From: Prosopocoilus inquinatus | Lineage: Eukaryota > Arthropoda > Insecta > Coleoptera > Lucanidae | Assembly: GCA_036172665.1 (NCBI GenBank) | Contig: CM069876.1 | Location: forward strand, 37,107,001-37,171,000 | Direction of reading: 5' to 3' | Length of the DNA: 64,000 bases | In this document: one piece after another, positions 8,280 to 62,325 of the stretch | How the letters are laid out: each line of letters opens with the position of its first letter | How positions within the stretch are numbered: the first letter of the stretch is position 1 | Made by a program: the position numbers and the translations under genes | The notes under the pieces: model-generated | The model's input: only the letters and a program-made list of their open reading frames with translations | Told to the model about the DNA's origin: nothing | Database searches by the model: none

Positions 8280-11165
8280 CATATATTTACTTCAATTAAC
8301 ATGGAAAATGAGTTGCCTTTCTTCTTGTATAAACATACCTGTACTAATATTCTTCAATCAAATGCAATTACGTTGGATCTTTGTTAAGCGAAAGGATGCA
8401 TGTCTTAATAAACAATTGGAAAATGTGACCTCTTCCATTCATTCGTTTCAACGGACACGGAAAAGGGGTTGCCACTGTGCTTATATGACCTCTTTCGCGT
8501 ACCAATCATAATAGACACAGAAAATGGGAGTTGCATCTTGCCTGCACGTATACTTATTTGTTTGTATTGTGAAACTAAAAGCAATTTTCCATAAACAATT
8601 AAAAAATGTGACCTTTTCCATTTATTCGTTTCAACGGACACGGAAAAGGGGTTGCCGCTGTGCTTATATGTGCAAGCCTACGTTCATATTGTCAAATTAA
8701 ATGCAGTTACGTTCGGTCTTTGCCGAGCGAAAGGCTCCACCTCTTAAAATCTACAAGTAATTGAAAAATGTGACCTCTTTCGCGTACCAATCTTATAAAC
8801 ACAGAAAATGGGGGTTGCATCCTGCCTGTACTGTATACTTATTTGTTTGCATTGTGAAACTGAATGCGACTATTCATAAACAATTGAAAAACGTAATCTT
8901 TTCCATACATTCGCTTCAATGGACACGGAAAGAGGGTTGCCGCGCTGCTTATATGTGCATACCTATATTCATATTGTCGAATTAAATGCAGTTACGTTCG
9001 GTCTTTGCCGAGCGAAAGGCACCACCTCTTAATATCTACAGGTAATTGAAAAATGTGACCTCTTTCGCGTACCAATCTTATAAACACAGAAAATGGGAGT
9101 TACATCCTGCCTGTACTATATACTTGTTTGTTTGTATTGTGAGACTGAATGCAATTATCCATAGACAATTAAAAAATGTGACCTTTTCCATTCATTCGTT
9201 TGAACGGACCCGAAAAAGGGGTTGCCGCTCTGCTTATAAGTGCAAGCCTAAGTTCGTAATGTCAAATTGAATGCAGTTACGTTCGGTCTTTGTCGAATGA
9301 GAGGCTACACCTCTTGATATCTACAGATAATTGAAAAATGTGATCTCATTCGCATACCAATCTTATAAACACAGAAAATGGGGGTTGCATCCTGCCTGTA
9401 CTATATACTTGTTTGTTTGTATTGTGAGACTGTATGCAATTATCCATAGACAATTAAAAAATGTGACCTTTTCCATTCATTCGTTTGAACGGACCCGAAA
9501 AAGGGGTTGCCGCTCTGCTTATAAGTGCAAGCCTAAGTTCGTAATGTCAAATTGAATGCAGTTACGTTCGGTCTTTGTCGAATGAGAGGCTACACCTCTT
9601 GATATCTACAGATAATTGAAAAATGTGATCTCTTTCGCATACCAATCTTATAAACACAGAAAATGGGGGTTGCATCCTGCCTGTACTATATACTTGTTTG
9701 TTTGTATTGTGAGACTGAATGCATTTATCCATAGACAATTAAAAAATGTGACCTTTTCCATTCATTCGTTTGAACGGACCCGAGAAAGGGGTTGTAGCTC
9801 TGCTTATAAGTGCAAGCCTTAGTTCGTAATGTCAAATTGAATACAGTTACGTTCGGTCTTTGTCGAATGAGAGGCTACACCTCTTGATATCTACAGATAA
9901 TTGAAAAATGTGATCTCTTTCGCATACCAATCTTATAAACACAGAAAATGGGGGTTGCATCCTGCCTGTACTATATACTTGTTTGTTTGTATTGTGAGAC
10001 TGTATGCAATTATCCATAGACAATTAAAAAATGTGACCTTTTCCATTCATTCGTTTGAACGGACCCGAAAAAGGGGTTGCCGCTCTGCTTATAAGTGCAA
10101 GCCTAAGTTCGTAATGTCAAATTGAATGCAGTTACATTCGGTCTTTGTCGAATGAGAGGCTACACCTCTTGATATCTACAGATAATTGAAAAATGTGACC
10201 TCTTTCGCGTACCAATCTTATAAACACAGAAAATGGGGGTTGCATCCTGCCTGTACTGTATACTTGTTTGTTTGTATTGTGAGACTGAATGCAATTATCC
10301 ATAGACAATTAAAAAATGTGACCTTTTCCATTCATTCGTTTGAACGGACCCGAAGAAGGGGTTGCCGCTCTGCTTATAAGTGCAAGCCTAAGTTCGTAAT
10401 GTCAAATTGAATGCAGTTACATTCGGTCTTTGTCGAATGAGAGGCTACACCTCTTGATATCTACAGATAATTGAAAAATATGACCTCTTTCGCATACCAA
10501 TCTTATAAACACAGAAAATGGGGGTTGCATCCTGCCTGTACTATATACTTGTTTGTTTGTATTGTGAGACTGAATGCAATTATCCATAGACAATTAAAAA
10601 ATGTGACCCTTTTCCATTCATTCGTTTGAACGGACACGAAAAAGGGGTTGCCGCTCTGCTTATATGTGCAAGCCTAAGTTCGTAATGTCAAATTGAATGC
10701 AGTTACGTTCGGTCTTTGTCGAATGAGAGGCTACACCACTTGATATCTACAGATAATTGAAAAATGTGACCTCTTTCGCATACCAATCTCAATAGACACG
10801 GAAAATGGGGATTGCATCCTGCCTGTACTGTATACTTATTTGTTTGTATTGTGAAACTGAATGCAACTATTCCTAAACAATTGAAAAACGTGATCTTTTC
10901 CATACATTCGCTTCAATGGACACGGAAAGAGGGTTGCCGCGCTGCTTATATGTGCATACCTATGTTCGTAATGTTAAATTGAATGCAGTTACGTTCGGTC
11001 TTTGTCAAACGAAAGACTAGACCTCTTGATATCTGCAGATAATTGAAAAATGTGACCTCTTCCGCGTACCAATCTTAATAGGCACAGAAAATGGGGGTTG
11101 CATCCTGCCTGTAGGTATACTTATTTGTTCGTATTGTGAAACTGAATGCAATTATGTTTAGAAAT
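8280..11165 (+). repeat. 285-bp satellite array, about ten copies
   Basis: Ten head-to-tail units are marked by 'cacagaaaatggg' at roughly 8,515, 8,800, 9,085, 9,370, 9,655, 9,940, 10,225, 10,510, 10,795 and 11,083. The central units (about 9,050-10,780) are nearly identical, while the first and last units have diverged. Each unit is a diverged dimer: one half has 'tgacctctttcgcgtacc...aaatgggggttgc', the other 'tgaccttttccattcattcg...aaaaggggttgc'. The unit length is a multiple of three, so a repeated 74-codon frame appears in every copy; each ends in a stop and has no gene context. Confidence 0.95.
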
Positions 11166-12750: not shown

Positions 12751-12984
12751 TGAATCGATGAGTGCATAATAGTGTTCAGTCCAAATTTACTGTTTTGAGA
12801 AAACAACAAATAACTCTCTCTAGATTTTTATTTTAAATAATTATTAGCTTCAGTAGGCTTCAGACAGCCTTATCTGAAAAATTTTAAGCCAATGATTCGC
12901 GTAAAATAAAAATCTGGAAAATTATTTGTCGTTTTCTCAACACAGTAAATTTGGACTGAACACAATTATGCACTCATCGATTCA
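12751..12984. mobile_element. MITE-like element with about 100-bp terminal inverted repeats
   Basis: The left end (12,751-12,851) and the right end (12,884-12,984) are reverse complements over about 100 bp with a few mismatches. They open with 'tgaatcgatgagtgcataa' on either strand. Total length is 234 bp with a spacer of about 32 bp and no coding capacity. The DNA would fold into a long hairpin. I could not settle on a target-site duplication in the flanking T/A runs. Confidence 0.88.
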
Positions 12985-13400
12985 TTTATTTTGTGAAGTC
13001 AAGTAATCTACTACTTCTTAATTTTGTTAATTGCCCCTTTCTGAGTCGCAGACATGCGTATTTCATGTCCGGAATGTTATGTTAATTTACGATTGGCTGG
13101 TTTCTGACGTGGTACGTTCATTTCCGCTCTTACGACGGTCACCTCGGCTACTGGCATTATTGATGTAACAGTCAAAGAGTGCGCTTATTTAATGTTTTTT
13201 GTCCTGTTTTGGGAGTTAGTGTCCGAAAGGACATAATTCGGGTACGGCTTTGTCCGATTCTGAAACCACTCTGCGACGCAAGTGCGTTTTTGCACTAATC
13301 AGAAGCATGTGTCCTTACACAGGTAAGTTGTGCAAATGTGTGACATGTTGTTTTAGTCATCCTTAACACTTTCGAAAAGAAAGTAAGAATTTATCAAAAC
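12985..13400. other. Gene-less stretch
   Basis: Sequence of moderate GC content between the MITE and the retrozyme-like tandem array. No gene, RNA or repeat is recognised. Confidence 0.4.
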
Positions 13401-13699
13401 TTTTCAGCTGATAAAATGAGGGTGCGGCAAACATTTTGATTTTTCTTTTGTGCTTTAAGGAAGGCAACAATGTAAAAGAAAGATTTAGCCAATTTCCTGA
13501 AAAATGAACAAACAAAAACATTTTTTGCAATTATTTTCCGAGTTCTAGTTCATGGTATTGCCCCTTAAAGAAAAAACATTCCCGTCGGTACCGTCCTCCC
13601 CCAATCTTATACTCATTCTTTGACTGCAAACGATCGTAGGATGTCGTTGCTTAAGCTATTCATTACTATTTGCGAATATCCTTGGTCGAATCGTTTGGG

Positions 13700-13762
13700 T
13701 TTGCAGTGAAACTGATGAAGCCCTAAATAGGGGTGAAACAGCTGTACAGAGGCTAATCGAGA
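13700..13762 (+). ncRNA. Degenerate hammerhead ribozyme, copy 1
   Basis: The core CTGATGA lies at 13,712-13,718 and GAAA at 13,735-13,738. Stem II (13,719-13,734) has one G-G mismatch, a loop AAAT and four further pairs plus the closing A-U. Palindromic ACAGCTGT and cleavage triplet GUA follow (13,738-13,746). The 5' strand of stem I present in the other copies is deleted here, so this copy is probably inactive. Confidence 0.7.
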
Positions 13763-14055
13763 GAAGATTTTGCCCAGTTTTGTGAAAAAGTAAACAAGCA
13801 GAAAACATTCTTTGCAAACATTTGTGAGTTCTAGTTCATGGCATAATAGATTCCTAAAAGGGAAAAAAAACTGTCGACCCCCACCCTGCTCTTATACTCG
13901 TTGTTTACACTAATTTTAAAAAATAGTTTAAACATCCCATGATCATTTTTTGGCCTAACATTGCCAGCGATCTAAGATGTCGCTGTTTAAGACATTCATT
14001 ACTATTACACTACATTTGCGAATATCCTTGGTCGTTTTGGTTTGCAGTGGGAATG

Positions 14056-14120
14056 TCGAGCTACGTCTCTGCTGACGAAGCCCCAAGCAGGGCTGAAACA
14101 GCTGTACAGAGGCTGCTCGA
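14056..14120 (+). ncRNA. Type I hammerhead ribozyme, copy 2
   Basis: Folded by eye. Stem I outer helix: TCGAGC (14,056-14,061) with GCTCGA (14,115-14,120). Internal loop: TACGT against GCT. Inner helix: CTCTG (14,067-14,071) with CAGAG (14,107-14,111). The core CTGACGA is at 14,072-14,078. Stem II has five pairs, AGCCC (14,079-14,083) with GGGCT (14,090-14,094), and loop CAAGCA. GAAA is at 14,095-14,098. Stem III is the minimal palindrome C-A-G/C-T-G without a loop. U14,105 and A14,106 form the NUH cleavage site, with cleavage expected after 14,106. All invariant hammerhead core bases are present. A loopless stem III suggests activity as a dimer, as is known for other minimal-stem-III hammerheads. 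Confidence 0.85.
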
Positions 14121-14165
14121 GGTTTTCACTGCAATCAAAAACGATTTGCAACAAAATTTTTTATT

Positions 14166-15995
14166 ACTAATTTTAAAAGTATTTACGTATAATAAATAGT
14201 GTTTGATGTTATAGTTGACAGAACTAAAAGACTAGTTTTACATTCTGAATAGAAATTTCTGACGTAAATTTCTTTAAGATAAACTGTTACATTTGATTCT
14301 CGCATTGACCATTCCGGTCAGGTAGGCCTCCCTTTGTACGTGCGTGTAAGCGCATGTTGATTGTCGTTAGACGCGCCTCTCCCATCGTTAGATGGTATTG
14401 TGGTGTGGACAACTTTCCTTTTTTTACTTAGACGGCAAGCAAGCAAGCTGCTTGGTGTTGATTACTTTTTCAAACGCGTTGTGTGCTGAATGATATCTTT
14501 GCTTCATTTGTTGATGGATTTATGAACCTGGTGTTCGGATTCCAATTACGTTGTTGTGTTGTGTTCCATTGCGATCGCTTTTAGATCGGTTTTGAGGGAC
14601 GTGCGATTTTATTTTTGGCTTTATGTTTTGTAGCAACTTAAGCACCATTTTGTCATTTGAGTGTTTCCACGTGCGTTTACCGTTCGCGGCAGTAAATTTC
14701 CACACATTTTCTTCCTTCTAGCAAGCAATCCCGGGCGGATTTTTACCGGGCGATTCGGTATATGGTGGTTGTCACGTCGCTTAACCCGTGAACGTTGTTT
14801 TGAACTTTGAAAAACTACACGTTCCTCTCGTGCGTTATTGTTGAAAGGAAAAGAAAGGGTTGAACCGTTCTCGTTTCTGGACAGACACTGCCATTTCATC
14901 GACGATAGGCCACGGAGGGATTGAGATTGAAATACTTCCAACTTTTCTTTATTCTTCTTCGGAAAAGTATCGCGTGTCGAGATCAAACGGGCGTGCTTCG
15001 GGCCAGTGGCGTGGTCAGGTGGGCCTACCTCACTATTCACCGACGAATTCGACGGAAGGGATGATTAGCTTGCTTGTTAACGTAATATGGTTAGGGGTAT
15101 TTATTTATTTTTTTTTTTTTTGAGAATATTTACATTGTCTCGTATTTTGTTGCGTTTAACCTGCTCTGTTAACTGTTGATTTATATTTTAGCTCTAGTTT
15201 GAGAGTGGAATCATGAAAATTTGGGAAGTTTATCTCCTTTTCTTTTTGGCTGTTGGACCTGTGCGCTTCATACTATTTTTTTTATGATATTCATTTTATT
15301 ATCACGAGATTGTAAGCTATACGAGGGCACTCATGTCGATGCGCCGTCGCCCCTTTGATTGGGCTGTATAAAACTGAACTTATTTGCTATTTTTGCGGTC
15401 ATTAACCCTACTCGGGGTTGTGCTTATACTCACTTTCCCCATTTGCGTGCCTAATTAACATTATATTAGTGACCGAATCTGAAGTTGTGAAGTCTGAAAT
15501 TTTGTGATTTTGCCACCAGTCTGGTGACGTATCTAGTCTACTTTTTTCGTTTAATTCTGTTTGATAATAACTAAGTTTCTGCAGGATCCACCCCCTCAGG
15601 GATCAAAGAGACTAATAAGAAATAACTGTTGGCGATAAAATCTCGGCGAACATTTTGGAATCCTACGAAATCACATCCGCTTTCAGAAAGAGTTCGGCGA
15701 ACATTAATTCACTTAGAATTTCCTTCCTCCGCCGCACGTCATTGATTACATTCAATTGACGCCCACTATTTGGGTTCTTATTAAATTTTTGTCACCGAAG
15801 TGGCCGACTTAATTTAGATACTCCCTAAGTGAAGAACACATTTTGAACCACCCCCACTTTCTCGCGTGGTTGTTCTTACACTTCAAGAACGGTTTATCAA
15901 GCAGACGTTTACTTTACCGTATCTAAACGACTGCTTGGCTCAAGAATATTCCTGTTGTTTTGACAGAAACAAAGAAAGAATGCGCAAAAAAAAAC
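14166..15995. other. Gene-less stretch with an unrecognised minus-strand open frame
   Basis: A minus-strand frame of 139 codons (14,621-15,040) and an overlapping 61-codon frame (14,520-14,705) are basic and polar. They could be remnants of a mobile-element ORF, but I recognise no motif. 'gtcaggtaggcct' (14,319) and 'gtcaggtgggcct' (15,014) form a short direct repeat, and 'caagcaagct'/'agcttgcttg' (14,440/15,066) a short inverted one. The evidence is too weak for an element call. A 24-bp direct duplication ('aaagaaagaatgcgca') lies at 15,970-16,013, just before the LINE remnant. Confidence 0.35.
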
Positions 15996-18544: not shown

Positions 18545-19228
18545 CTCTGTAAATATAATGAGAAATTAAAAGAAATACAAGAAAGGACAAAAAGGGATAA
18601 TCTTTACAATAAAACCCAAAAGCAACCGAGAAATAAAAGAACAGCAAATTAAAACGGAGAAAACAAATTAAAAAGAAATTGAAAGAAGAGGCAAATTTAA
18701 AACAAGAAGCGAAAGGAAAATAAAACTAAAGACGAACATCAAATTGAAATGAACAATTCAATCTAATTAGAAATTGAATAGAGAAACAAATGAAAACCAA
18801 TGGGCGGAGTAAAATCAAATGAAAAATGGAAGCAAAAAATTTTAATTAAATTATTTTGACAAACAGTAAAAACAAACAAATAAATATAAAAATTTTAGAG
18901 AAATATAAATCTAGATAAACAAATAGAAAACAGATGAAGTTCAAAATGAGAGGAGACGAATGACTAATAAAAATAAATGAAATGCCCATAAAAAAACATA
19001 AAAATCTTAGGAAAAAATAAATCTAATGAGAAATTAAAAGGTAAAAAACAATAAAATAGCGACCTCTTACTATCGCTTTTTGACCTAACATTGCAGTAGG
19101 ATAGACAAATTGAAGCGGGATTTGCTCCTAATGAGTCCCCCATGCAAGGCGGCCATGCTTGCTGTCAAAGCATAATGAAATATTTTAGAAAAATTTTGTG
19201 CAAATCGTTTTTGATTGCAGTGAGAACC

Positions 19229-19293
19229 TCGAGCAGCCTCTGGACAGCTGTTTCAGCCCTGCTTGGGGCTTCCTCAGCAGAAACGTAGCTCGA
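19229..19293 (-). ncRNA. Type I hammerhead ribozyme, copy 4
   Basis: Read on the minus strand. Stem I outer helix TCGAGC (19,293-19,288) pairs with GCTCGA (19,234-19,229). The inner helix TTCTG/CAGAG (19,282-19,278 with 19,242-19,238) includes one G-U pair. The core CTGAGGA is at 19,277-19,271. Stem II AGCCC/GGGCT has loop CAAGCA. GAAA is at 19,254-19,251, followed by palindromic CAGCTG. The cleavage triplet is GUC, cut expected between 19,243 and 19,242. All core bases are intact. Confidence 0.85.
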
Positions 19294-19616
19294 CATTCCC
19301 ACTGCAGACCAAAAACGACTTGCCCAATTTATTCGCAAATGCGATGTAAGAGTGATGAACATATAAAATAGCGACCTCTTACTATCGCTTTTTGACCTAA
19401 CATTGCAGTAGGATAGACAAATTGAAGCGGGATTTGCTCCTAATGAGTCCCCCATGCAAGGCGGCCATAGGAGCAAATCCCGCTTCAATTTGTCTATCCT
19501 ACTGCAATGTTAGGTCAAAAAGCAATAGTAAGAGGTCGTTATTTTATATGTTCATCACTCTTACATCGCATTTGCGAATAAATTGGGCAAGTCGTTTTTG
19601 GTCTGCAGTGGGAATG

Positions 19617-19681
19617 TCGAGCTACGTTTCTGCTGAAGAAGCCCCAAGCAGGGCTGAAACAGCTGTCCAGAGGCTGCTCGA
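19617..19681 (+). ncRNA. Type I hammerhead ribozyme, copy 3
   Basis: Stem I outer helix TCGAGC (19,617-19,622) pairs with GCTCGA (19,676-19,681). The inner helix TTCTG (19,628-19,632) pairs with CAGAG (19,668-19,672), with one U-G wobble. The core CTGAAGA is at 19,633-19,639. Stem II AGCCC/GGGCT (19,640-19,655) has loop CAAGCA. GAAA is at 19,656-19,659, then palindromic CAGCTG. The cleavage triplet GUC lies at 19,665-19,667, with the cut after 19,667. It is in the same family as copy 2 but has A at the variable core position and C at the cleavage position. Confidence 0.87.
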
Positions 19682-21656
19682 GGTTCTCACTGCAATCAAA
19701 AACGATTTGCACAAAATTTTTTTAGTAAAAAACAATATTTGAAAGTCGAAGGACAGAAGCAAATGAAGACGAAGAACTAAAAGCAAAAGGAAAATAATAC
19801 TAAAGACAAGTATCAAATTGAATTAAAATTGAATAGAGAAATAAGTGAAATTAATGAGCAAAATAAAATTAAATGAATAATGAAAACAAATCATTCAAAT
19901 AAAATTATTAAGCAGTAAAAACAAACAAATAAATTTAATATAAAAATCTTAAGGAAAATAGATCCAATCAAAAGAAAAACAAAAAACATTTGAAAGATGA
20001 AGGAAATAGAAACTTAAAATGATAATACGCCTAATTTGTAACAAGAAATAAATAATAATAAAACACAAAAGCAAACAAAAGAAAGATGCAGGAAGCAAAT
20101 AATTTTTTTATAGAATTAAATTTAAAACAAAAAAAAAGGCAAAAGGAAAATGAAACTAAAGACGAACGTCAAATTGAATTGAACAATTGAATCTAATAAG
20201 AAACTGAATATAGAAATAATGAAAAGCAATGAGCGGAGTAAAATCAAACGAAAAATGGAAGCAAAAGATTTAAATTAAATTATTAGACAAAGAGTAAAAA
20301 CAAACAAATAAATGTGAAAAATCTTGGAGAAATATAAATCGAATGGAAAGAGCAAATTATAACACAGAAAGCAAATAAAAAAATTGAAAAAGAATTAGAC
20401 TTAAACAAACAAAAACGCGGAACGGAAATGAAAATAAAGACAAACATCAAGTAAAAAATGATATAACTGAAACTAATTTATAAAAATTGAATAGAGAAAC
20501 AAATGAAAACCTATTAGCGAATTAAAAAAAATGAAAAGTGAAAAGATCAAATCAGAAACAAAATTGGGAAGAAAAAACAAACTAAAAACTAACTTCATAC
20601 GAAAGATGAAATAAATGAAAAGCAAATAAAAAACGAAATAGTCTCTTGAGATGACCTTGGAATAGGGCAGATTATAGTTTTCACAAGCAATTAGTTTTTT
20701 AGTGAACTGTCTGAGATCATTTGAAGGGATTCGCTCAGTTCTGACGAAAAAAGGGATTTCATGAGACACCCAGATTTGATTTATCGTGGGCGTCGCGACG
20801 CAGAATCGTCGGAACGTTAACTCGGTAGAATCGCCTAATTTATTCCTTGCACAGCGGCGAGATGTGTCTCGGGAAAAAAATTTATAAAGATGAAATTTAA
20901 TTTTCTTTTCTTCTCTGAATCAATTAATTTTTTCAGTGTCCTCTTCTGAATTCACCCGTGCAATTTTTATTAAAAGATGTTCAGGGATGTTTGATAAGTT
21001 GACAATTTCTTTTTCAGTCCAGAATTTAATTCTTTTGCTGCGGTCTTTTGATTCTTTCCTCTTTTTTAGCACCATCTGCTAAAGTTCAACAGCAATATCA
21101 CTTAATACGGTGTCGGCGGAACGAAACTTCTTTATTGAAGTTTGGCGTGAAAAGGTTTCAATTTCAACGAAACTTGTATTTTCTATGAACTTCTGGTTTT
21201 TGTTTTGCTTAGTTTTCAGTACCATCTGTTGAGCTACAGCCGCAGTATAATTCGGTCAACAAACCTTCTATCTAAGTTCTGTGGTATTTTGGTTTCTACA
21301 ATTTCTTACATTCTGATTTAGGCTTAAATTTAATCCTTGGTCAATCTGCAAGCCAGAATTTTGCGAAAAAAATCTAAATATAGCAAACCATTCAAGAGGG
21401 AGGCAAAAATACAATTTTTGAACTTCTAACCTTCTAACTACTCCCTGTACCAATCTATTGTTCCTCTGCAATTAGGTCAATTGAAACGTTTCCTTATCTC
21501 AGCACATCTTTGAAAAACATGTTATAAAAAAAAGTCTTCTTTAGTATGACTGTTGAGTAATAAACTGTAATAAATGAATGATTGTGAGTGATTCTGTTAC
21601 GATTCAAAAAGAAACGAGGCGTCCGTCAAGTTACGTTGTAAGGAAAATCTAATTCG

Positions 21657-30400: not shown

Positions 30401-33400
30401 CATATTCCTTTTGATTAATCCCAACCCAACCTTCATTCCCGTGAATTTAAATCTTTATCTCCATCCCCTAACATCTCTGCATTTTCTTTGCCTTCTCCCA
30501 AAAGGGAATATAGGATATAAGAAAATACCAAGTGGGTTTTAGGACACGAGAAAATCAACGATATCGCGGCGACGTGAGTCGTTAGGATGAAGGATGAGAT
30601 AGAAATAGAAAATATTAAGAAGTGGAGAGGGAGAGAGAGAGCATAAGAAGGAAGACCAGGAGGGGACGAGATTAATACGAAAAGATTAAGTGATCAAAAG
30701 TATATTTAAAAATGAAAGGAATCATCAAATGGAGAAAATGAAAGAAAAAAATAGTAGGATTAAAAGAACATAGCAATAAAAGTTAAGAATTGAATGGTGG
30801 GATGAAATGACGACTCAACGCCACGAGAAGAATCCAGTATAGCTCGATGTTTTCGTCACGAATGAGATAAATCGATAATCTTACTATAAGAAACATATTT
30901 GACTTTACGTTATGTGAAACAAACGAGCATATCTTGGGGTCATTAGTTCTCTCTCTCTCTTGGCTTGATTCAAGTTTTTCATCAGTCTACACCTTCCTTT
31001 TGAAGATTCAATGAAACAGTCGCTATGTGTAAAAGTAAAATTGTGTCACATTTTTAACTACCATGAACCTCCTTTAGTTTTTATCCACGACACCTCATCA
31101 AAACACCATCACAAAGAAGCTTACCTGTTTTTTAAACATCGTCGTCGTCAAGGTATACAGCACAGGGTTGAGGGCTGAATTTATCGGCAAGATAAATATC
31201 GCCAGCCACGCGTAGAGATACTCGGAGATATGCGTGCCTGAAACAGAACCATTCCTTCTTACCCCCAACCAAATTGTTACTAGTAACCCCTACGTTCATT
31301 TAATGACAAAATAAGAAGTGAGATTACGACCCTGCATAAGAAAACATCATCAGCATCAAGTTAAAATCATGCAAGCAAAAGAGGGAAGGGGTCATCGAGG
31401 AATGTTAAATGTAACCTTGGACAGGGAGATGGGGGGAGATGTAACCATCATCAGTACTAAGTCAAAATCAAGTGATCATGCAAGCAAAAGAGGAAAAGGG
31501 TCATCGAGGAGTCTAAATGTAATGTTGGATGGGGTGACGGGGGGAGATGTAACCACCATCAGCACCAAATCAAAATCAAGTGTCATACAAGCAAAAGAAG
31601 GAAAGGATCGTCGAGGAATCTGAATGTAATCTTGGACGGGGTGATGGGGGGAAAAGAGGCGAAATTTACTAAGCCGGTTTCCAACTTGCCTGTCAAAGCT
31701 GCGAGTTTGACGATGATCACCGGCACCCAACACAAGCAGTCAGTTAATACGATCACCCCAAATCTCTGCGCCACCTTATCTCTATCCCGACTTAATTGTG
31801 TGCTCCGACAGGCAACTCCACTCGCTCTGATCTCGTGGATCATCCTGGCGTACGCGTAAAAAATGAAGACCAGCGCGACGGTGTTAAGAAAAACGAACAT
31901 GACGATGGAATACTCCCAACCCTAATAAACAAGATGGACGGTTTGAGTTGCCTAAATAGATTTATGTGAGGTAGCTGTTTGAATGGTGATCAGGATTGGT
32001 ACGAATTTTATAAGCTTTAAATCTAACTTAAGTAAATTACAAGCAACTCCTCTAAATTCTCCAGTAATATGACTGTGATCTCTTACTTTACGTAAAGCAT
32101 TTGTAAGCGTAAGTATTCCAGTGGAATCTTTGTCTTGTCCATCATCATCAAACTACTACATTATCAGAACACGGTTCACCTACCACGTGAAAGGGTTCGT
32201 GTATGTGTAAGGGTAGACACACCCCGTTGCTGTTGTAGAATTCCCTGAAATAATCCGTACTGATGTCCGTCAAGGGTACAAACGCCATGGTGGCAGCCAA
32301 CATCCACAAAAACAGAAGCATCAAGGCCGCCGTTTTATGCGACGGCTGTCTCCTGGCCAAAGGTTGGGTGACCGAAATGAAGCGATCCCACGTGACCAAA
32401 GAAAGAATCAGTACCGACGACTCGCAAGAGAGCGTGCTGAGGAAACCTGTTGGTTCAAATCTGCAATTAAACAACAACCCAAGGTATTGGGTTTACTTTG
32501 TACCACAGAGACTGCAGAGATTGCTGTGTCTCCACGAATACTCGTGCTGCAAATAGACTCCTCGGTAGTGTTGGTCCGCACCGGCGATTGTAAAGAGGTA
32601 AACCCCCATAAGAAGGTCCGATAGGGCAAGGTTTTTTATGTACAGGGAATGCACGACATTGTTGGTCGGTGAAAGAAGTCTTCCGAGCAGGACTATCATG
32701 TTCCCTACGCAACCCACCGTTGCCATAATCCATACGCTGTTTCAAGAAATTACGTGTCAATTTAAATTTCCATTTTAATCGAAACATGTAAGAGCTTCAA
32801 GATAATAAGATAGAGAGAGAGAGAAAGAGATTTCATACTACTTACCTCATCCTAAGTACGGGGTTATGGAGGAGGTGCTCGTAACTGGAAATGCCGTCTC
32901 CCTTGGGGTAGCAGACCTTGACGTGAGGCGCCGCGACGCACATCTCAAATCTACTGAAATATCTAAAACAATTTCGTGTTATTTGGGGGGAAAGAAGTTT
33001 TGATTAGGCGGCAACCGAAGTTGAAAACATTTAACGAAATGGATAAAAAAAAAGTTTGTTAAAAAATAGAAGATTGCGAGTAAATAAATACAAAATACAT
33101 GAGAATAGGGAAACCAGGAAAAAGAGAAGAATTACAATGACATCACAAATGATTTCAACCATCAACCAAGTGACCAACCAACTTGAATTACATTTTCTTT
33201 TTTTTTTGAGTAGCAACATCAAGAGGAAAAGTGAGATTGTTATTCAAATAATCTCGTATCTGTCACTGACAGTTTCTAATTTTTTGTTACCAATAGAGTA
33301 TAATGCGTTGCCTATACGACAAGGTTACGTAATTTGAAATCATTTCTGATATCCTTTTAGAAGACCTATCAGAAGAGGAAAGTTATGAAAAAATTAGAAA

Positions 33401-45400: not shown

Positions 45401-48400
45401 TGCACCGGAATTTATTAAATTTAACGTCCTTTGCCACTGGAGTGTTATTTCATTTGTGCTACTAAAAGGCTAAAGTTTCTCCTCAAATAAACTGGAAGCT
45501 CATTTTTTAAAGCCGACGCTTTTCCGACATCATTGATTTGCCGTGTTTTCTTTTTACTGGTTGTCATTGTGTGTTGTGCTGAATCGCAAGGAACCACGTT
45601 TTCTTGAAAGGGATTATTTTTTTTATGACATGTCTTTCAAAGATGTGCTGAAATAAGGAAACGTTTCAATTGACCTAATTGCAGATGAACAATAGATCGA
45701 TACAGGGAGTAGTTAGAAGTTTAGAAGTTAAAGAATTGTATTTTTGCCTCCCTCTTGAATGGTTTGCTATATTTAGATTTTTTTCGCAAAATTCTGGCTT
45801 GCAGATTGACCCAGGATTAAATTTAAGCCTAAATCAGAATGTAAGAAATTGTAGAAACCAAAATACCACAGAACTTAGATTGAAGGTGTGTTGACCGAAT
45901 TATACTGCGGCTGTAGCTCAACAGATTGTACTGAAAACTAAGCAAAACAAAAACCTTAAGTTCATAGAAAATACAAGTTTCGTTGAAATTGAAACCTTTT
46001 CACGCCAGACTTCAATAAATAAGTTTCGTTCCGCCGACACCGTATTAAGTGATATTGCTTTTGAACTTTAACAGATGGCGCTAAAAAAGAGGAAAGAATC
46101 AAAAGACCGCCGCAAAAGAATTAAATTCTGGACTGAAAAAGAAATTGTCAACTTATCAAACATCCCTGAACATCTTTCAATAAAAATTGCACGGGTGAAT
46201 TCAGAAGAGGACACTGAAAAAATTATTTGATTCAAAGAAGAAAAGAAAATTAAATTTCATCTTTATAAATTTTTTTCCCGAGACACATCCCGCCGCTGTG
46301 CAAGGAATAAATTAGGCGGTTCGACCGAGTTAACGTTCCGACGATTCTGCGTCGCGACGCTCACGATATACCAAATCTGGGTGTCTCATGAAATCTCTTT
46401 TTTCGCCAGAACTGAGCGAATCCCTTCAAATAATCCCAGACAGTTCACTAAAAAACTAATTGTTTGTGAAAACTATAATCTGCCCTATTCCAAGGTCATC
46501 TCAAGATTTCGTTTTTTATTTGCTTTTCATTTATTTCATCTTTCGTATGAATTTAGTTTTTAGTTTGTTTTTTCTTCCCAATTTTGTTTCTGATTTGTTT
46601 CATTTTATTTAAATTCGCTCATAGGTTTTCATTTGTTTTTCTATTCAGTTTCTAAAAATTAGCTTCAGTTGTATCATTTTTCACTTGATGTTTGTCTTTA
46701 TTTTCATTTCCTTTTGCGTTTTTGTTTTAAGTCGAATTATTATTATTAGTATTAATTCAATTTGATTTGATGTTCGTCTTTAGTTTTATTTTCCTTTTGC
46801 CCTTTTTGTTTTAAATTTAATTCTTTAAAAAAAATTATTAGCTTCCTGCGTCTTAATTTGCTTTTCTTTTCTTCGTTTGCTTTTGTGTTTTATTATTATT
46901 TATCTATTGTTACAAATTAGGTGTATTGTGATTTTAATTTTCGTTTTCTTCCTTCATCTTTCAAATGTTTTTTGTTTTTCTTTTGATTGGATTTATTTTC
47001 CCTAAGATTTGAATATTAAATTTATTTGTTTGTTCTTACTGCTTAATAATTTTATTCAAATGATTCGCTTTCATTATTCATTTAATTTTATTTCGCTCAT
47101 TAATTTCACTTGTTTCTGTATTCAATTTTAATTCAATTTGATATTTGTCTTTACTTTTATTTTCCTTTTGTTTTTAGGTCTTCGTTTTCATTTGCTTTTG
47201 TCTTTCGACTTTCAAATATTTTTTTACCTTTTAATTTCTCATTAGATTTATTTTTTCCTAAGATTTTTGTGTTTTTTTATCGGCACTCCATTTATTTTTG
47301 TTAGTCATTAGTCTCCTTTCATTTTGTAATTCATCAGTTTTTTATTTGTTTATTTATCTAGATTTATATTTCTCTAAGATTTTTATATTTATTTGTTTTT
47401 ACTGTTAGTCAAAATAATTTAATTTAAATTTTTTGCTTCCATTTTTCATTTGATTTTACTCCGCCCATTGGTTTTCATTTGTTTCACTATTCAATTTCGA
47501 ATTAGATTCAATTGTTCATTTCAATTTGATTTGCGTCTTTAATTTTATTTTTATTTCGCTTTTTGTTTTAAATTTGTCTCTTCTTTTAATTGTTTTCTGC
47601 GTCTTAATTATTTTTTCTCGGTTGCTTTTGAGTTTTATTGTAATTATTATTCCTTTTTGTCCTTCGTCTTTCAAATATTTCTTGTATTTCTTTTCATTTA
47701 TTTCTCATTACTTTTATTTTTTCCTACGATTTTGATTTGATTTGTTTATTTTTATATTTGACATTAATATTTAAATTTTTTGCTTTCCTGCGTTTATTCG
47801 CACTCAATTGGATTTTTGTCTGTCATTATTATTTTTTCTTTCATTTTTAATGTCTTTCATTTGTTTTTTATTTCTTTATCTAGTTCCTTTTTTTCTATTC
47901 GTATGTCTATAAAATTGGTTTTCGTTTTTATTGGTTCTCCTCTATTTCAATTTGTTTTCTGCATTTTATTTGTCCATATTTATTTTTAGTTTGTCTTTTC
48001 ATCACTAACTGTTTTATTTCTTTGCTTGTTTTACTTTTGAATATAAATGTTTGATTTTTTTTTGCTTTCCTGCGTTTGTTCATAATTTGTTTGTTTTTGT
48101 TTGTTATTGGTGGTGGTGGTTTTCTAACCTGAAACATTTTTCTTAATTTTCAAGTCAGTTTTGCTTGAACGTTTGCAATTAAAGACATCTATTTCCAATA
48201 GTCTCTTTTTGTTCTCTTGTTCTTTGTTAAAATGTATTTATTTTATTAATTCTTTTCGCTTCAAGTTTCGCTAATCTTTTCGTTTTCCATTTGCTTTTTT
48301 TTTAGTTATGCTTTTTTTAATTGAGTTTCCTTAATCTGCTCTTTGCACTTTAGTTTGCTTTATTGATCTTCTGTTTTTCTTTCTTGTTTTTTATTACTTT

Positions 48401-51400
48401 TTTTTATTAGTTCTTTGATTTTTATTGCATTATAAAATTTGTTTACAATGAATCAGTATCTTTACATTTTGTTTCATGTTCCATTAGATTCGAAATCGCT
48501 CTTTTCATAGTTCATTTGTTTTTGTTCACATAATCTGTACCTTTCTCAAATTCTTGCTTTAATATTTGCCATTGGGGAAATCAGTTTTCATTTTGTTCCC
48601 AACTCTTTTCTTAATTTCATCATTTCTCTTCGTATTTCTTTACCTTTTTGTTTTTTATTGGTTTTTCCATTTTGACACTTTTTCTTACTTTTTAAACAGC
48701 CGCTTCGTTTTATGTATTTATTTACAGATTAAATTTTAATGATTCATTAAAAATCTTATTTTTTCGTCGTTTCTTTCTGGCTTTTATTTTATTCCGTCCT
48801 TCATTTTTCAATAATTTCTTATATTTTTGACCAGTTTATTTATTTATTGCCTTTATTTCATTGAATGTGTACTCTTCCTTTTTATTCCATCACAGCTTTC
48901 ACTTTTCGCATATTCTTGATTTGCGATTTCCTTCGTACTTATATTTATTTATTAATTAAAAATAATTCATTTTTCCTTATTTTCACTGGTTTCTTGTATT
49001 TTTTCATACTTAATTTATTTACTTATTGCTTTTGTTTCATTATTTTGCACACTTTCTATTTATTCAGCCGTTTTCTTTACTTTCCGCTTAGTTTCTGCTT
49101 TGCGTGCATTCCATTTGTTTCTTGCACGTGTGTTGTTTCTTCATTTGTTTTTATTTTCGTTCCTGTACTCGTCAGCCCTCGCTAGCCTTCGTGACAGAAG
49201 TATCCAGTCACAGAAGTAGAAGAGAGCGCGAAGTTTCAATAATTGATTCGAAAAACGCCAGTGAACGAACTGATACAGCGAATAGAGAACAGTGAAATAA
49301 TTTAAATATTATCGGGTAATTAATAAATTATCATATCATACAGAGTGAGTATAAATAAGTAATTTATGCTTTTATTTCATTCATTTTGCACTCTTTCCAT
49401 TTATTCCGCCGTTTTCTTTACTTTCCGCTTAGTTTCTATTTTGCGTGTATAAATTTCTTTTTGCACTTGTTTTGTTTCTTCACTTGTTTTTACTTTCGTG
49501 CTGTTCTCGTTAACACTCGTTAGCCTTCGTGACAGAAGTGTCCAGTCACAGAAACGGAAGAGAGCGCGAAGTTTAAATAATTGATTTGAAAACGCGAGTG
49601 TACGAACTGACAGCGAATAGAGAGACGTGAAATATTTTTTTAAATATTAAATATTAATAAATTATCATATCATACAGGGTGAATATGAATAAATACCCCT
49701 ATTTAATTATGTTTATTTTAATCGAAAACCCGAATGCCTAAAACTGTGATGGCAATAATACTGTTTGAGATCTTTTTTTTAACTTCTGTTACCTTTTACC
49801 TTCTGGTAGACGTACACCTAAAACAAATCAAGCAGCAAACTCACGCTCAGCTTCCACAAGAAAGCAGGAAATTAATTAGAAAAATCAAATAACTCTTAAA
49901 GAAGGCAATAAAGAGCGTATGGACCATTCCTTATTACGTGTAATTAACATTCCGCCGTAATTAATTTCTACGAACGTGAAGGAAAGAAACCTTACATCTA
50001 GAACTTCCACGTGCCCCCCCCTCCAACCCCTTCAACACGAAGAAAACACATAAAATTAATTAATTTAAAATAATACTTACAGGCTCTTCAAATCAAGTAA
50101 CGACGCGAAGCTCTTCCTCTCGACGGCATCGATTTGATTATCTGCGAGCGACAGAAGGACCAAGGGAATGTTCGGGAAGAATTCTTTTTTGATTGAGCTG
50201 AGATGATTTCCTCGCAGTTCTCTAAAAGAGAAAATAATAATGAGCGAGTCGCACAATTCCCTCTTGGAAGAGGTCGACGACACTCGTTCTTTCTGTCCAC
50301 TTGATGAGGGTGTCGATTGCTCCCTATGAGCAAGCTGGAAACGTCATATAGTTAATTAACATCGTCAATTCGTCGCACTGGGGTGTTTTATCAGCGTCAC
50401 CAATGATTATAAGAACGAACTTAATAGGGGAATGATTTACTATTCTAAATGAGGAATTTCTGTTTTAGTTTAAACTATCAGTTTGGGAGTGGTGGGAGAA
50501 TGAGAATGATGAGAACGGGAGCTTTGTAGAATACTTTTATTTGGGGGGGTAAACAATGAAAAGAAAAAAATAATTCAATTCAGGACTAAAAGATAAATTA
50601 ATTTAAATTATAAATAAGCCGCTTGTGTTCTGATTTGTTTACTCCAACGGCGAATCGAGGAATCGATTAACACTTTCTAACTTAATTAAACTTTGCGGGG
50701 GGTAAGTTCACAAAGGCAAAGTTCACAAGTGAGGTGCGTAATCGAAAGCGGCAATTTTTGTTTACATTAAATTTCGCTTTCCTCCCCCCCAAAAAAAACA
50801 CAGTAAAGTGACGCTGCTGAAAATCCCCCAACGTGATTTACTTGATCCCCAGAGCAAACAGCGACGAACGCGATCGCTTCTTAAGGCCCAAAGAAATATA
50901 CACATTTACTTTCTTCCTAAACTGTTTTATATTCAAAACATGGCATTAATTGAATTGATTAACAAATAAAAAGCAAACTTACAAAATTGTCAGGTTCTTC
51001 AAAGGCCTAAGTGTTTCGGCGTCGATGGTGGTAAGCCTGTTATTGCTCAAATCCCTGCAACAAAACAAACCAGATGGCGTTTTTATGAACGTATAAAACT
51101 TTCGGTGTGTTGTTAGCAGTGTATTCAATCAACAATCTAATTGATTAATTGAAAAGTATTTTTGGAAACGTCTGAGTTACTTCCAGTTTCGGAATAGACG
51201 TCTTTTCCGTTTGTTTAAATTTTTGACAATTTAAACGCCCTGAAAATCGTTCGATACATATTTATTCGAAAATTTAATTTAATTTTTGATTCAAGATTAC
51301 TACAATTTATTTTATTTTAATATAAACTTTCGCAGTAGGTAAGAGCTGGACAGGAAACGTCACAGTCTAAACAATAATTTAAGATCGCCTTACCCGTAGA

Positions 51401-61061: not shown

Positions 61062-62325
61062 CTGAAATAGAAAAGAAAAAAGAATTTTTACTTGATTCTA
61101 GAACCTACACACAAAAAAGATAAATGAAAAGGGCCTCAAACCCCACACTTGCGGTACACCCAACCGTAAGATAAAAGACGCGATGAATTTTAACATCGCG
61201 TCGTGTCGGTAAAATAAACGAATTAAAGAGAAAATTGCTGTATTTTTAGGCTAGCATAAATAAGGGAGAAGCACGTCTCAAGGACATTTGCTTGCTGGCT
61301 TTTATATTAATTTCAACAGAAAGAAGGAAAGTAAATACTTTTCCTGTAATTGTAACGTGTGCCCTAAATTATGCAGAAGCGGAAACTTAGTCTTTAATAT
61401 TTACAGATTAAATTTTAATACCGATTTGTCTTATTCTTATTTTTTCTCATCTTTATTTTCTTCATCCAAGACCGCCTTTTGTTGTTTTTATCTTAATAGA
61501 TTAGACGGCATTTAATTTTTATTTTGATCATCAATTAATCTTCATTTCTTTCTTCTTTTATTCGAGTTTATTTTATTTAATTATTAGATAACAAGTAGCT
61601 GTCACCTAGTGACCGATTGCTTATTAAGTACAAAACCTACTAGCCCGGTATAATTCGGACTTTGCCCGATTTATTTAACATTTTTGTTGCTTTATTTATG
61701 TGGTTATATTTTTATTTCACACTTTCAAACAAATATTTAAAAAATTGAAACATCGCAAACAATAGTTGTGTTGCAAAAATTATTTTACCTACTTTTTTTT
61801 ATTTTATTGAGGGCCGATTTCATCATAATCGAATTAAAGGAGACTTTAAAACTAAAAGTCACATTCTGAAGAATAAATGACTAGGTTTTCATATCTTTCT
61901 GTACATATGACTGTGACTATTTTTAATTTTAAAATTGCCTTTAGTTCGATAATGAAATCGGGCCTGTTATTTATAACGCACAAAAAGAAAAACCTTATCC
62001 CTTATCGCAAGGGCTTCGCAATATTAAGGCCGTCTCTGAAAACTAACGAAAGATTAAATTAAACATATTTAAAAAAAAATGTGTATTCGTGGTGGGAAAT
62101 TATATAATCTTATGCACTTCAAGAAAAAAAATATCGTAACGAGATTATTATAAATTAAAGAGCGCCTATTTTGAATCCGGGATAGTTACGGACGTGGACG
62201 GTTACGAACCCGAAACATTTACGTATCTCGGCGTGTCTTATTGAAGTGTTATTTCGCACCCGAATCGCTAGGATTCAACTAAACAGCAGGTGTGTGGCCG
62301 GCCGTTGTTAATCACGTCGCACCAC
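61062..62325. other. Upstream intron or 5' flank, first part
   Basis: The part at about 61,265-61,312 resembles the 5' end of exon 1 and its acceptor ('aaggacatttgc', 'ggctttt.atatta'), an apparent decayed partial duplicate. The part at 61,105-61,172 ('agaacctacacac...cttgcggtacacc') recurs at 63,632-63,720. The signal-peptide exon was not found. Confidence 0.5.

Follow-up and report, generated by a model that had tools for sequence, protein, structure and literature searches.

Within the window, by which we mean the whole 64,000-nucleotide stretch of the Prosopocoilus inquinatus genome analysed here, four copies of a short repeat carry a hammerhead ribozyme or its remnant (table 1). Copy B holds a complete type I hammerhead: the core CTGACGA (14072–14078, plus strand), a five-pair stem II (AGCCC/GGGCT) with loop CAAGCA and then GAAA, the palindrome ACAGCTGT, and a two-part stem I closed by TCGAGC/GCTCGA. 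An earlier note, made from the letters of this DNA alone, had claimed the core, stem II, loop, GAAA, the stem I closing pair and a cut at 14,106 for this copy, and all were found as stated, together with the loopless palindromic stem III. Copy A has a decayed core at 13712, 360 nt upstream of copy B, with its predicted cut at 13746/13747. It lacks the 5' strand of stem I and has a G-G mismatch in stem II, in keeping with the description of the first copy as decayed in stem I and the second as intact. A scan of the window revealed two further complete copies, D at 19277 (minus strand) and C at 19633 (plus strand), the former 93% identical to B over 129 nt. The tandem pair of ribozymes reported at 13,746 and 14,106 is therefore there, and these two complete copies had been missed. 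The reported 360-nt monomer holds in so far as the cores of A and B lie 360 nt apart; A/B is a decayed, older copy, and the young copies have a 312-nt unit. The proposed start at 13405 finds no support, given that the internal repeat begins at about 13480 and that, among 63 genomic matches listed, only the locus itself begins before 13932.

Table 1. Positions of the hammerhead copies, the two-armed insertion and its target site within the window.
Feature	Position	Strand	Comment
Unit A, first and decayed unit of the old direct dimer	13480..13761	+	ribozyme remnant 13712-13761
Unit B, second unit: stretch common to other genomic copies	13966..14163	+	3' end (T1) inferred from where matches stop
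Extended hairpin of B	14030..14146	+	fold z -7.7
Type I hammerhead of B	14066..14112	+	predicted cut 14106/14107
Left target-site duplication GTAAAAAACAATA, 13 bp	19041..19053	+	
Head-to-head insertion, 671 bp	19054..19724		D arm + C arm
D arm, ~1.3 units of 312 nt	19054..19467	-	outer end type T2
Type I hammerhead of D	19237..19283	-	predicted cut 19243/19242
C arm, part of a unit	19468..19724	+	outer end type T1
Extended hairpin of C	19588..19709	+	fold z -7.9
Type I hammerhead of C	19627..19673	+	predicted cut 19667/19668
Right target-site duplication GTAAAAAACAATA, 13 bp	19725..19737	+	
Empty site GTAAAAAAATA in the inverted duplicate of the flanks	47217..47227	-	2 nt shorter than the duplicated target

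The hammerhead in the window is confirmed as real, and the probability of its chance origin is small. A core with stems II and I of at least 5 pairs each turned up once in 469 dinucleotide shuffles of the window; the real window has three occurrences, which are copies of one another and all have an inner stem I of 7 bp. The covariance-model check suggested by the earlier note gave a divided answer. No hammerhead match was returned by Rfam at the gathering score for the whole window, or at E≤5 for positions 13300–14300 (1001 nt). When 85 nt were given, RF00163 (Hammerhead_1) was the top family for B (20.3 bits, E 0.0051), C (23.8 bits, E 0.00034) and D (23.1 bits, E 0.00057), aligned over its full length (1–45/45). 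By score all three lie under the curated 34 bits; by structure they have the conserved core and the three stems in type I order. In the alignments of B and C, the loopless palindromic stem III is a feature of Rfam's own type I consensus.

Stem I runs on outwards, so that the ribozyme forms the tip of a hairpin of 117–124 nt. Between B and C, 109/114 positions are conserved in this hairpin compared with 47/68 in the stretch upstream (p 1.4e-6). Counting against the ribozyme reading, the active fold is 5–6 kcal/mol worse than the best predicted fold. Among genomic copies, the core motif is intact in 42/53 hairpins and G8 is changed to A in 4/48 copies, and the family is therefore partly dead.

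Copies D and C are the two arms of one head-to-head insertion, bordered by 13-bp direct repeats whose sequence the window has at no other place. Its surroundings have an inverted duplicate at 45617–47703, where the target is present once and without the insert. This duplicate pair (18551–21533 / 45617–47703), the source of the empty site, is about 85–94% identical. The two arms differ at 4/257 positions whereas the duplicated flanks next to the insertion differ by 13–15%, so the flanks were probably duplicated before the insertion took place. Within the D arm, which crosses the ribozyme cut site, 103/104 overlapping positions are identical between units. The A/B locus has no head-to-head arm, and a search there for a target-site duplication gave nothing convincing (the best candidate is a 9-nt repeat with one mismatch); the locus represents an old direct dimer in which no duplication can be seen. 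Upstream of it lies a 68-nt inverted repeat (12751–12818 / 12917–12984), 93% complementary.

The 650-Mb genome that holds the window was searched for further copies. With the stretch delimited by the earlier note as query, the best 40 of 2669 first-look candidates were scored and gave 63 matches; with the 312-nt unit, the best 40 of 877 gave 177 (the candidate numbers are not verified copy numbers). Among the matches listed for the 312-nt unit, the best are 98–99% identical and often in tandem. Further tandem copies of the unit, which the earlier note had proposed to look for, are thus present, and at the level of genomic sequence the matches show a dispersed, multicopy family.

Two samples of insertions were read. 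The first comprised the 39 loci that the 40 scored out of 2669 candidates yielded once the A/B locus was set aside, plus the C/D insertion of the window; drawn from the best-scored candidates, it is biased towards likeness to the query. Its 49 clusters were reduced to 40 by removing 4 cut by locus edges and 5 judged to be copies of a passenger insertion in L015 (those in L020, L022, L026, L027 and L041). These six loci share the same retrozyme insertion and the same flanking repeat, probably a passenger multiplied inside another repeat. The second sample comprised 20 loci of high identity out of at least 37 other places among the matches listed for the 312-nt unit: 17 were taken in list order, and L079–L081 as large arrays already visible. 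Dropping 3 of 27 clusters at edges left 24, some of which are older neighbours (81–95% identity).

In the first sample, 29/40 clusters are head-to-head, with a minus arm followed by a plus arm; the remaining 11 are plus only (5), minus only (5) or mixed (1, plus-minus-plus), and no two-armed cluster is tail-to-tail. The outer ends fall mostly at two places of the unit. T1 lies at unit position 279–302, 52–75 nt past the ribozyme cut, and T2 at 106–126, about 190–210 nt past it. One outer end of each kind was found in 25/29 head-to-head clusters, where uniformly placed ends would give such a pair in 2%; the exceptions are L012, L018 and L034, which have T1 twice, and L036, with T1 and another point. 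An exact direct repeat of at least 10 nt adjoins the boundaries in 15/29 head-to-head clusters compared with 0.9% of 861 shifted boundaries; the other 14 have none.

The second sample gave a cleaner result. Here 13/24 clusters are head-to-head, with arms 98.0–98.7% identical to the unit, and all 13 have T1 and T2 ends and an exact direct repeat of 11–14 nt (null 3/420), one of the 13 duplications (L063) being a simple repeat. When L079–L081 are left out, 10/21 are head-to-head and 10/10 have both ends. The other 11 clusters are plus only (7), minus only (3) or mixed (1). Arrays of other forms also occur: in L064 and L065 about 5 and 4 units, respectively, follow one another in direct orientation only, and the arrays begin and finish at one and the same point close to T2; L078 is a minus-plus-minus-plus array.

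Taken over both samples, T1 and T2 ends are paired in 38/42 head-to-head clusters. Inner junctions vary among the insertions of the first sample and the duplicated repeats vary in both samples, so these are separate insertion events. The longest arms run for 6.85 head-to-tail units of 312 nt across uncut ribozyme sites, and the template was therefore circular or multimeric. That is, reverse transcription may have copied a circle or a long uncut multimer; the DNA fits both equally. Folded as a circle, a single 312-nt unit, not tuned to the observed ends, is predicted to be 68% paired (z −8.2). T2 and T1 fall at the two most open 12-nt windows of this fold, with starts at 104 and 286, respectively. 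The 360-nt unit of the A/B locus folds at chance level (z 0.07).

No reverse transcriptase (RT) or GIY-YIG domain was found in the window (Pfam, 15 of 24 frames of at least 110 aa). In a GIY-YIG search of the genome, 150 of 2232 candidates were scored and all of those listed exceeded the curated cut-off; among scored neighbours within 8 kb, 46/47 pairs are arranged minus-then-plus and one minus-minus. Three loci (L054, L055, L056) have open frames of 788 aa. The one tested by domain search contains RVT_1 and GIY-YIG, by which its carrier is identified as a Penelope-like element. A further GIY-YIG match, in L052, has a frame unlike the 788-aa one and possibly represents a second Penelope-like family.

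Six loci of the Penelope-like element served for comparison with the retrozyme. All six are head-to-head and pair a short with a long outer end, the two lying 40 nt apart; exact repeats of 12–13 nt border each insertion. One was picked for its long frame and five because they were already visible as pairs, so that their end types and duplications count as independent evidence and their head-to-head form does not. The short end comes 46 nt after the supposed cut of a core that resembles a hammerhead. By eye, a core-like CTGAAGA...GAAA and the palindrome TACGTA can be seen in the element, in which Rfam recognised no hammerhead. As read from these insertions, the retrozyme and the Penelope-like element show a common form: head-to-head arms, two kinds of end and the same repeat length.

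We put the probability at roughly 0.8 that the element is a non-coding retrozyme of the animal type, about 312 nt long (360 nt in an older variant), with a type I hammerhead and mobilised by Penelope-type machinery. The retrozyme-like organisation put forward in the earlier note is borne out by the type I hammerhead, the 312–360-nt unit, the head-to-tail arrays, the dispersed copies and the precise insertions. Against the reading as a whole stand the Rfam scores under the curated threshold, the clusters of other forms (11/40 and 11/24, pure direct arrays included), the A/B locus, the 14 head-to-head clusters of the first sample that lack an exact repeat, and the failure to detect any sequence common to the retrozyme and the Penelope-like element. 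Since many copies share their unusual two-armed mode of insertion with a Penelope-like retrotransposon of this genome, copying of the retrozyme into the genome by Penelope-type enzymes is suggested. In such a process, multimeric transcripts would cut themselves at the hammerhead, perhaps as dimers via the ACAGCUGU palindrome, and a host ligase would close the circles. A Penelope-type reverse transcriptase/GIY-YIG endonuclease would then cut both target strands, and each target 3' end would serve as primer at T1 or T2, the two open U-rich stretches of the predicted circle. Synthesis would run round the circle for a variable length, after which the two cDNAs would be joined head-to-head. A long uncut multimer would be an equally suitable template.

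Published work on Penelope-like elements is consistent with several of these steps; here and below, statements drawn from cited papers refer to the accessible parts of those papers. In vitro, the Anolis Penelope-like protein cleaves the two target strands and extends each of them; it initiates synthesis at internal sites of the RNA, which match the ends of genomic copies, and does not need hammerhead cleavage (PMC11167929). Rotifer Penelope elements have inverted pLTRs, an optional tail and duplications of 8–10 bp, sometimes none (PMC3846280). The ribozyme's presumed part, which is to cut multimers and supply ends for the ligase, is taken by analogy from its class (PMC7229834).

A broader proposal, which we favour with less assurance, is that animal retrozymes are parasites of Penelope-like elements. 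A folded RNA circle would offer two open U-rich stretches, one to be primed by each strand of a staggered target cut; reverse transcription rolling on from the two starts would account for head-to-head insertions whose ends are fixed and whose tandem arms are long. If this is true, the two ends are a genomic signature that names the mobilising enzyme in other species.

The class itself is already known; what is new is evidence on the retrozyme's mobiliser. For animal retrozymes, the accessible part of PMC7761336 describes the repeats as lacking a motif that would indicate their autonomous partner. Penelope-like elements were put forward as a strong candidate on the basis of shared features and co-occurrence (PMC7229834). 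Here the insertions themselves take the form of a Penelope-like element of the same genome in which open frames of 788 aa persist, and they locate the start points of synthesis within a few bases; the question of the partner thereby becomes directly testable in vitro. Our search of titles and abstracts returned no head-to-head retrozyme insertions, and a literature search combining Penelope, head-to-head and hammerhead returned no paper; neither result implies absence from print.

The alternative that survives best, though we consider it unlikely, keeps the same mechanism and differs in origin: the element would be a shrunken Penelope-like element, made of a pLTR and the start of the reading frame, instead of an independent lineage that borrows the enzyme. 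Reduction of Penelope-like elements to retrozymes has already been proposed (PMC11722881), and in the Anolis Penelope the hammerhead overlaps the start of the frame, with synthesis starting 111–118 nt into it (PMC11167929). In the present family a frame crosses the ribozyme, and the distance between its ATG and T1 is 111 nt in both B and C (with the end of B as inferred in table 1). This ATG is absent in 20/48 copies. At the sequence level, the Penelope-like insertions read contain no significant similarity to the retrozyme. Immediately after the cut there is a 21-nt resemblance, equalled by 7/1000 shuffles for C and 49/1000 for B; we treat it as no more than a lead, because over the whole ribozyme regions the likeness does not exceed that of shuffles (281/500 and 144/500). 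We regard the frame as unnecessary, although it may be a relic of a Penelope start.

It is considerably less probable that one or several LINEs are the mobiliser and that the head-to-head form is ordinary twin priming. Twin priming is a minority outcome of LINEs. In addition, the two arms overlap the same stretch of template, and the insertions use two fixed end points inside the RNA in 38/42 head-to-head clusters. The 11–14-nt duplications fit LINE-type target-primed reverse transcription as well, and hammerhead repeats of Nematostella with 15-bp duplications have been likened to LINEs (PMC4918200).

More improbable still is a foldback DNA transposon or the amplification of a satellite with the hammerhead as a bystander. 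Inverted arms and tandem units occur in both; against this, the two outer ends differ in sequence, junctions are not constant among copies, each insertion has its own duplication and the hairpin is more conserved than its flank. Finally, we dismiss a protein-coding exon with a coincidental ribozyme fold: 4/5 variable sites among B, C and D fall at third codon positions of the frame that crosses the ribozyme, and 41/48 copies are open over 96 nt, yet N7 and H17, which a hammerhead leaves free to vary, are two of these sites, the ATG is often lost, and the shuffle test leaves little room for a chance fold. The frame has no relative in Pfam and no match in the PDB, and a longer frame of 113 aa has no protein match at E≤0.001 among 6 candidates. 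The earlier statement that the repeat is not protein-coding is in line with these searches and with the lost ATG, the frequent openness of the frame notwithstanding.

Metazoan non-LTR retrozymes are recognized by tandem units of 150–450 bp with a type I hammerhead, a lack of coding capacity, a GC content below 50% and duplications longer than 4 bp. The present family has 312-nt units in arms of up to 6.85 units, a frame without relatives that has often lost its ATG, 43.5% GC in the C/D insertion, and duplications of 13 bp in the window and 11–14 nt in all 13 head-to-head clusters of the second sample. The last figure also separates it from plant LTR retrozymes, which have a 4-bp target-site duplication. 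As for Penelope-type integration, it has the head-to-head arms, the two kinds of outer end and the short duplication. A Penelope-like element would have its own RT and GIY-YIG frame; the 312-nt unit has none, and these domains occur only in the separate 788-aa frame.

Like the metazoan non-LTR retrozymes of PMC7229834, the family has a type I hammerhead, short units (170–400 nt there) in head-to-tail arrays, a GC content below 50%, long duplications and a folded circle (here predicted). RNA circles and cleavage were demonstrated for those retrozymes and are predicted for this family; the accessible part of that paper does not mention two-armed insertions with head-to-head orientation and a pair of fixed ends. 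With Penelope-like elements (PMC3846280, PMC11167929) it shares head-to-head arms, two kinds of end (there made by an optional tail), short duplications, partial tandems and a hammerhead, and it differs from them in encoding neither reverse transcriptase nor GIY-YIG endonuclease. The hammerhead repeats of newt and axolotl are alike in their weak helix III, palindromic loop favouring dimers and 330–350-nt tandem units; they are from vertebrates, and their insertion form is not described in what could be consulted of PMC7229834. The Dolichopoda pDo500 hammerheads also come from an insect repeat and have a proposed extended stem I, although the accessible text describes them as satellite DNA, without insertion anatomy (PMC2837043). 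The hammerhead pattern had 0 matches in collections of genome contigs and viral contigs, and none in phage records.

CpG is not depleted in the window, which also holds other repeats and some coding frames. A 285-bp tandem array of 9.4 copies (8486–11155) has no hammerhead core; folded as a circle, its plus strand is not unusual (z −0.8) and its minus strand somewhat so (z −2.4). A 338-bp tandem repeat of 1.9 copies (49027–49682) has a circular fold that is not unusual. Relaxin-receptor-like frames of the rhodopsin type, together with a separate LDL-receptor class A frame, lie on the minus strand (31583–31921, 32148–32492 and 60727–61104). The relaxin-receptor-like frame at 32148–32492 has 22 relatives, of which those from the beetles Aromia, Diabrotica and Rhamnusium are 66–76% identical.
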